Source: Botrimarina colliarenosi (lineage in GTDB: Bacteria; Planctomycetota; Planctomycetia; Pirellulales; Lacipirellulaceae). Taken from it: DNA of 64,000 nt. How positions within the stretch are numbered: position 1 is the first letter of the stretch; each line of letters opens with the position of its first letter. The stretch lies in contig NZ_SJPR01000004.1 of NCBI RefSeq assembly GCF_007859955.1, forward strand, positions 248,001 through 312,000, given 5' to 3'. The notes beneath the pieces were generated by a model. That model made no database searches. It was given only the letters and a program-made list of their open reading frames with translations, and had not been told where the DNA came from. The position numbers were made by a program, and so were the translations under genes. Positions 62,244-64,000 of this stretch are shown here, piece by piece.

Positions 62244-63020
62244 GTGCTGCAGTTCCTTGTTGATCACCATCTGGGCTACCTGGGCATCGTCCTGTTCCTG
62301 GCGTTGTGCGGGTGCGGGGTGCCGATTCCCGAAGAGGCGCCGCTCGTGCTCGCCGGGGTGCTGAGCTCGCAGGGGACCCTCGAGCCGTGGCTCGCTTTCT
62401 CGTCGTGCTTGTTGGGCGCCCTGCTCGGCGACTCGATCATGTACGCCATCGGCCGCCGGTTCGGCCACGCCTGGCTCACCAAGCACCCGACCGTGTCGCG
62501 CTTCATCGACGCCGACAAGGAAGAGAAGTTCGAGCACGCCGTCCGCCGGCACGGCTTCAAGATGCTGCTGCTGACGCGGTTCTTGGTCGGGGTCCGCGGG
62601 CCCGTCTACTACGCCGCGGGCGCGGCCAAGGTCCCCTACTTCCGCTTCCTGCTGTGGGACCTGATCGGGGCGACCACCGTCGTTGGCATCGTCTTCTGGC
62701 TCGGGTACCGCTTCGGCAACGGGATCACGAAGATCGTCCGCGACGCCGAGGAGGTCGCCACGGCGGTCATCATTCTCGGGCTGATGGGCGTGGGGGTCTA
62801 CTTCCTCTACAAGAAGCAGACCGCCAAGGTGGCCGAGGCGTTGGAGGACATCACCGAGCAAGACGCCGACGAGGCCGCCCTTGAGCAGGCCGACCGAGTT
62901 GAGGCCAACCCCGACGACGCCAACCGAGACGACGCCGAGGGACGTCCGACCCCCGCGCCGCCCTCAAAGAACGGAGCCGTCGCCTCGCCAAGCGACCAGC
63001 CGAACGACGTCGCCATGTAA
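62244..63020 (+). CDS. DedA family membrane protein with acidic C-terminal tail
   Basis: 258 residues. GIVLFLALCGCGVPIPEEAPLVLAGVL is the DedA/SNARE-associated start with the conserved Pro-Glu pair, LGALLGDSIMYAIGRRFG the second motif, and LLTRFLVGVRGPVYYAAGAAKV the Arg/Gly-rich re-entrant part. DedA proteins move undecaprenyl phosphate or lipids across the membrane and help with pH and peptide resistance. The last 65 residues form an extra tail rich in Asp, Glu and Ala, unusual for the family. GTG 62244 is the start, 124 bases after the ApbE-like gene. Confidence 0.9.
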   Translation: MLQFLVDHHLGYLGIVLFLALCGCGVPIPEEAPLVLAGVLSSQGTLEPWLAFSSCLLGALLGDSIMYAIGRRFGHAWLTKHPTVSRFIDADKEEKFEHAVRRHGFKMLLLTRFLVGVRGPVYYAAGAAKVPYFRFLLWDLIGATTVVGIVFWLGYRFGNGITKIVRDAEEVATAVIILGLMGVGVYFLYKKQTAKVAEALEDITEQDADEAALEQADRVEANPDDANRDDAEGRPTPAPPSKNGAVASPSDQPNDVAM

Positions 63021-63227: not shown

Positions 63228-63270
63228 AAAAACACCAACCGCCGCCGGGCCAGATGAGGCCCGACGGCGG
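63228..63270 (-). terminator. Rho-independent terminator of the Cys-rich gene
   Basis: Stem 63239-63251 (CCGCCGCCGGGCC) with 63258-63270, 12 of 13 paired, six-base loop. On the minus strand a GGTTGGTG spacer and five T (63232-63228) follow. It lies 75 bases past the stop codon of the Cys-rich gene. Confidence 0.75.
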
Positions 63271-63343
63271 TGAGGCGTTTCGTTATCAGCTTCCTCGCCG
63301 ACTGCCGGTTGGTGTGCCGGTCGCCGCGGGGGATTCAGCAAGC

Positions 63344-63871
63344 TCAGCCACCACAGCCACAGCTGGGCTCAGCGGCGCAACCGCACGACGGCTCGACGCA
63401 GCACGACGGCTCGCAGCAGTGGTGACGCTTGAACAGGCCCTTCAGGCCGTCAAACAGGCAGCAACGACGCGGGGCGCAGCACGGGTCGCAGCAATCGGCT
63501 TCGCAGCCACAGCTGGGCTCAGCGGCACAGCAGGAAGGCTCGGCAGCACAGCAGCTCGGCTCAACCGCACAGCACGACGGCTCGCAGACGGGCTCGCAGC
63601 AGACCGGCTCGCAGCAACCGTGATGACGCTTGAACATGCCCTTCAGGCCGCCGAACAGACCGCAACGCGGCGCACAGCAGGGGTCACAGCAGACCGGCTC
63701 GGCGACGCAGCACGAGGGCTCGCAACCGCAGGAGGGCTCGGCGTCACAGCAAGCGGGGGCGGCGCAGCCGCAGCCACCCAACAGGCCAAAGCCGAAGGCG
63801 TTGGCGCTCGAAGCGCCCGACGACAAGGCCGCGCCCATACAGAGGGCGATCGCAGCAAAACGCAAGTTCAT
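63344..63871 (-). CDS. Cys-rich secreted repeat protein
   Basis: 175 residues. A signal peptide ([19 protein letters not shown], then ASSANA with likely cleavage before FGFG) leads to a mature part with 40 cysteines, mostly as CC pairs separated by AEPS, VEPS, EPV and DP. Two large units repeat: [29 protein letters not shown] occurs twice, with variable numbers of EPSCC repeats between. The GLKGxFKRHH parts are basic and could be amphipathic helices. A strong ribosome site (AAGGAG) lies 8 bases upstream of ATG 63871. I do not recognise a named family; planctomycete cell-wall proteins are known to be Cys-rich, and metal binding or disulfide cross-linking are the obvious possibilities. Confidence 0.85.
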
Positions 63872-64000
63872 GGTAGGACTCCTTAACGAAACGGGGGGGG
63901 AGGGGATTCACGCGGACCGCCGTCAGCTTTGACCGCTCGGAGGAGACCGGCCTCGGCCTGGTTCCTCGCTCCGACGGCGACCTAGCGGACAGCGTTCGCT
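63872..64000. other. Right edge, upstream of the Cys-rich gene
   Basis: About 130 bases of leader and promoter for the minus-strand Cys-rich gene. Apart from the ribosome site and an eight-G run at 63893-63900 no clear signal was seen, and no gene start can be identified at the edge. Confidence 0.4.

Follow-up and report, generated by a model that had tools for sequence, protein, structure and literature searches.

The YTV proteins of planctomycetes (PF07639; Rhodopirellula baltica, Gemmataceae) are cysteine-rich proteins that occur in wall preparations and have been proposed to contribute to a wall of cross-linked protein (PMC8567305 and PMC10632474). The protein of Botrimarina colliarenosi analyzed here likewise carries an export signal, is rich in cysteine and is specific to planctomycetes, but it lacks the YTV domain (Pfam, E <= 1) and its mature part contains neither Tyr nor Thr. 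YTV genes lie at three separate loci of the same genome. Judged by its sequence, the protein is comparable with the YTV wall proteins and not a member of their family, and its own family is not named in the available text of PMC8567305 or PMC10632474.

Resemblances also extend to proteins of other organisms. The keratin-associated (ultra-high-sulfur) proteins of hair are built of CC-x-P-S/T repeats with Pro beside the Cys pairs and form a disulfide matrix. The same repeats and the same placement of Pro are seen here, and a disulfide matrix is what we infer; by contrast, this protein has a bacterial export signal, acidic Glu within its repeats and two basic Cys-free spacers, and no homology was found. 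Within the PVC superphylum, to which this organism also belongs, the chlamydial OmcA and OmcB are disulfide-linked cysteine-rich envelope proteins, as the present protein may be, but they are not repeat proteins of this kind and there is no Pfam match. Neither Pfam (E <= 1) nor the PDB sequences gave any homology to the keratin-associated or chlamydial proteins. Bacterial metallothioneins of the SmtA type, which are cytoplasmic and short, share the high Cys content and some His, whereas the protein described here is predicted to be exported (the predicted signal peptide is conserved in its orthologs), has 40 Cys, and does not conserve its His; a metallothionein profile match was found neither in Pfam nor in NCBIfam at E <= 1.

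A conserved gene for a cysteine-rich protein

The gene lies in the window, by which we mean the whole stretch of 64,000 nucleotides that was analyzed (contig NZ_SJPR01000004.1, positions 248,001 to 312,000). The features discussed below are:

62244..63020, plus strand: VTT/DedA-family membrane protein, a convergent conserved neighbor (PF09335, 9.6e-22)
63228..63271, minus strand: intrinsic terminator after the stop codon, a 14-pair stem with 12 GC pairs followed by TTTTT (L007 3239-3272)
63344..63871, minus strand: gene for the 175-residue cysteine-rich protein (41 Cys), exported by prediction, from the open reading frame and its conservation in the genus
63419..63457, minus strand: second basic spacer, residues 139-151, GLKGxFKRHH motif, from the spacer compilation
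63617..63661, minus strand: first basic spacer, residues 71-85, GLKGxFKRHH motif, from the spacer compilation
63797..63871, minus strand: predicted signal peptide, residues 1-25, assigned by eye like all signal peptides here; the aligned orthologs keep both the hydrophobic core and the A-x-A end
63879..63884, minus strand: ribosome-binding site AAGGAG, 7 nt before the ATG, its GGAG retained in most orthologs

The open reading frame is an exact match to the one in the original prediction, and the two GLKGxFKRHH copies, the ribosome-binding site of its own, the signal peptide and the terminator named there are all present. The forty cysteines counted there are those of the mature part, the remaining one of the 41 lying within the signal peptide; at 40 of 150 residues (26.7%), their share is somewhat higher than the "nearly a quarter" first given, while the cysteine-richness itself stands. 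The mature part also holds 17 Pro and 13 Glu, with zero Tyr, Thr, Trp, Ile, Asn and Gln.

Homologs with a conserved reading frame, whose absence would have spoken against the original prediction, were found in the genus and in the wider order, and the planctomycete origin supposed there is correct. The frame is present in 4/4 genomes of the genus, pairwise dN/dS is 0.17-0.25 at dS 0.76-0.98, and the aligned cysteines are largely retained relative to the window gene (37/40, 36/38 and 40/40); the open reading frame is therefore no product of chance but a real gene under purifying selection. Since the two other sense frames contain stops in 11/11 orthologs and one antisense frame is open in 9/11, the overlapping plus-strand frame 63254-63886 is likely a compositional shadow.

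A family found almost only in Pirellulales

Protein searches placed the family in 29 of 44 genomes of the same taxonomic family, and a profile search matched 147 of the 247 Pirellulales genomes sampled, a number to be taken as an upper figure for true orthologs because weak profile matches may be other cysteine-rich proteins. Outside the order, profile matches were confined to four genomes in the class sample, and the phylum sample gave none at 1e-8. The sequences thus sampled suggest an unnamed family that occurs almost only in Pirellulales. Scans of the protein against Pfam and NCBIfam returned no family at E <= 1, with the caution that the composition filters of HMMER could hide weak matches of so cysteine-rich a protein; PHROGs, PDB sequences and plasmid records gave no match either, nor did an Rfam scan of the region. 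Literature searches returned no description of the family, of DUF1598 (see below) or of planctomycete metallothioneins.

The same genome encodes a longer paralog of 335 residues with 82 Cys (L008:4742-5749, on the minus strand of C1), which contains three CLLDKLFGK(L/M)KCHKSCC units. Its tail (APMPPAPMADPNASIGRQRDVVRVSFAR) is conserved and free of Cys, ends in VVRVSFAR and is in part common to L094; it could act as a signal for sorting or anchoring.

Acidic cysteine blocks and basic spacers

The orthologs share one order of parts. A signal peptide and a brief G-rich start are followed by a Cys block, a spacer, a longer Cys block, a second spacer, and a Cys tail that mostly has PSCGC or TCCG at its end. 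Acidic blocks of Cys, Pro and Glu thus alternate with short, basic, Cys-free spacers, typically two per protein; two are recognizable in most orthologs, and a few have one or an interrupted copy. In three distant members the spacers contain 6-12 K/R and 0-1 D/E, the blocks 2-4 K/R and 14-17 D/E. The sequence of the spacer depends on the genus, with GLKGxFKRHH here and AKLRARRAARK, SRLKARLAAKH or GLFHHLKHKL in others. All 60 spacers compiled carry a net positive charge (mean KR minus DE +3.6) but only 39 contain His, counts that are descriptive because the set was compiled by hand.

Two spacers within one protein have a mean identity of 81%, as against 37% for the same position between genera, and in 15 of 20 cases the partner spacer is as close as, or closer than, the spacer of any other genus. 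These identities suggest concerted evolution of the two copies, and the likeness of such pairs (e.g., 63419-63457 and 63617-63661) points to gene conversion or to selection for matched units. An amphipathic-helix reading of the spacers was dropped, as their amphipathic moment is barely above that of shuffled sequences (mean z 0.29). The number of Cys is even in 40 of 65 proteins, which are not independent of one another, so that parity is a weak test of full pairing. AlphaFold2 with a four-row alignment gave a pLDDT of 34 and no usable fold.

A fixed-spacing promoter-like element

CGATA occurs in 26/26 upstream regions compared, and 24 of these sites align without gaps to the consensus YSAAR-N16-GWCGATANC, about 80-190 bp before the ATG. 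The copy belonging to the gene itself lies at C4:312018-312047, 148 bp before the gene and 18-47 bp past the end of the window. A matrix built on the element scored 16.6 and 18.0 in two other families, for members outside the matrix set, compared with a background whose best score was 14.5 and with just two sites of at least 10 in the 64-kb window; for several other distant members it gave no convincing site. A scan for sigma-70 promoters found none. The spacing is fixed, the upstream box contains AA and the downstream box begins with GWC, features that suggest recognition by an ECF-type sigma factor, although the identity of that factor does not follow from the element by itself, a point that weighs against the reading we favor below.

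Upstream of the longer paralog a variant, TCAAG-N16-GCCGATA, is present in the same genome, and similar TCAAG...CCGATA sites precede the paralogs of five relatives. The strict pattern has three sites in the genome against one in the reversed control, of which the one at C1:1675394 stands before a recombinase gene and probably reflects chance; the relaxed pattern has 12, with 5 in the control. Apart from those of the two cysteine-rich genes, three relaxed-pattern sites lie about 100-120 bp before genes for exported proteins. One exported protein without a Pfam match (L141:2-1396, minus strand) has its start 106 bp downstream of a perfect match to the pattern and is a candidate member of the same regulon; an exported frame of 450 residues and a lipoprotein-like frame of 80 residues (L155 and L147) lie ~100-120 bp downstream of relaxed matches. 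At the YTV-domain and DUF1598 loci of this genome, as far as their partial upstream coverage extends, the matrix found no convincing site.

Neighboring genes and DUF1598

Within the genus it is located downstream of serS and converges on genes for VTT, ApbE and a phosphohexomutase-like protein, serS and the phosphohexomutase being named from their sequence alone. We do not think that the VTT/DedA neighbor is functionally tied to the cysteine-rich gene. Across a wider range, 15 of 41 loci, in five Pirellulales families, have on the same strand a gene for a DUF1598 protein (PF07643) with a signal peptide, its start 114-851 bp further downstream; the assignment is confirmed by Pfam for three and made through the BLAST cluster for the others, and the genomes are related and the counts hence not independent. 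As a 5-Mb genome has about two DUF1598 copies, chance is unlikely to have placed the two genes side by side so often. The genome analyzed here has two DUF1598 genes, both away from the cysteine-rich gene. The adjoining DUF1598 proteins (L106:7644-9356, with equivalents in L077, L081, L084, L087, L095, L099, L103, L107-L112 and L114) mostly end in or near WWWD. Among the conserved genes flanking the family no metal-handling gene, and near the gene itself no immunity or dedicated export gene, was recognized.

Possible functions of the protein

Two VKOR proteins are encoded in the genome, one of which is fused to a thioredoxin-like domain with CPHC (L157:1483-2898); from its domains this fusion is likely a disulfide-forming enzyme, so that oxidation of Cys pairs after export is possible in principle. 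A search of the genome for DsbA with PF01323 found none, the CPHC domain of the fusion scoring under that cut-off. Both export, from the predicted signal peptide, and an oxidative folding enzyme in the genome, the VKOR fusion, are thus as expected for a disulfide-cross-linked envelope protein, and a disulfide-bonded protein sacculus has been described in this planctomycete group (cited in PMC2754498). On these grounds a disulfide-linked envelope matrix, one of the two functions in the original prediction, fits best, and we put the probability that the protein is a regulated envelope protein forming a disulfide-cross-linked mesh, rather than a metal store, at roughly 0.6. Counting against it are the AlphaFold model of low confidence, the weak Cys parity, the slight amphipathicity of the spacers and the missing PF01323 match.

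The signal peptide would export the protein to an oxidizing compartment outside the inner membrane, where disulfides would form from the CC, SCC and CGC pairs, with the VKOR-thioredoxin fusion as a plausible oxidase. The acidic Cys/Pro/Glu blocks could then form a flexible, cross-linkable mesh in the manner of keratin-associated proteins, while the two basic spacers may bind acidic partners such as the blocks of neighboring molecules, envelope lipid or acidic polysaccharide, the outcome being an insoluble disulfide-bonded layer or reinforcement of the envelope. Expression would depend on a dedicated fixed-spacing promoter, common to the longer paralog, and on an alternative, possibly ECF, sigma factor, and the secreted DUF1598 protein encoded next to the gene in many relatives may be a partner.

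The other proposed function was an exported metallothionein-like store or buffer, in which Cys pairs bind soft metals such as Cu, Zn, Cd or Hg outside the cytoplasm with the spacer His as additional ligands. A Cys content of 26.7% with CC and CGC patterns is in keeping with it, as is the His in 39/60 spacers, plentiful in relatives with GLFHHLKHKL. However, 21/60 spacers, including those of some whole genera, have no His, and positive charge is the constant feature (60/60); the FKRHH histidines, replaced by AKLRARRAARK or SRLKARLAAKH in other genera, were accordingly rejected as conserved metal ligands. The conserved neighbors include no recognized metal-handling gene, Pfam gives no metallothionein match, and the compartment is likely oxidizing, given the VKOR fusion. 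Shorn of its histidine argument, metal storage is possible but unlikely. The very high Cys content, the predicted regulated promoter and the VKOR fusion would suit a periplasmic redox buffer or oxidation sink, expressed through an alternative sigma factor, whose reversible thiol/disulfide pairs absorb oxidative stress; this leaves the constant layout of acidic blocks and basic spacers and the DUF1598 linkage unexplained, and we regard it as quite improbable. Lower still we place a secreted membrane-active protein for antimicrobial action or competition, with basic GLFxxLKxKL spacers as cationic membrane-binding helices on a disulfide scaffold: the uniform spacer charge and the short, Cys-bounded spacers, often with GLF or GLL at their start, speak for it, but the amphipathic moment barely exceeding that of shuffles, the lack of a recognized immunity or export gene nearby, and a family widespread across the order with partly conserved synteny speak against it.

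Implications for the planctomycete wall

The composition of the planctomycete wall is a long-standing question. Early chemistry found a sacculus of disulfide-bonded, cysteine-rich protein, for which few candidate proteins have been named beyond the YTV family. New here are the fixed-spacing promoter element, the downstream linkage to DUF1598 and the VKOR-thioredoxin fusion in the genome, with the reservation that the statistics are drawn across related genomes and hence not independent. As a tentative extension, more doubtful than the disulfide-cross-linked mesh itself, Pirellulales may possess a wall or envelope polymer, hitherto undescribed and specific to the order, in which acidic disulfide blocks are combined with basic spacers; it would be assembled with the secreted DUF1598 protein and have an alternative-sigma regulon of its own, to which the longer paralog family and further exported proteins would belong. 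The cysteine-rich family would be a second candidate for the protein wall, one that is unrelated to YTV, is widely conserved and carries a promoter signature, and DUF1598, a domain of unknown function, becomes a candidate partner.
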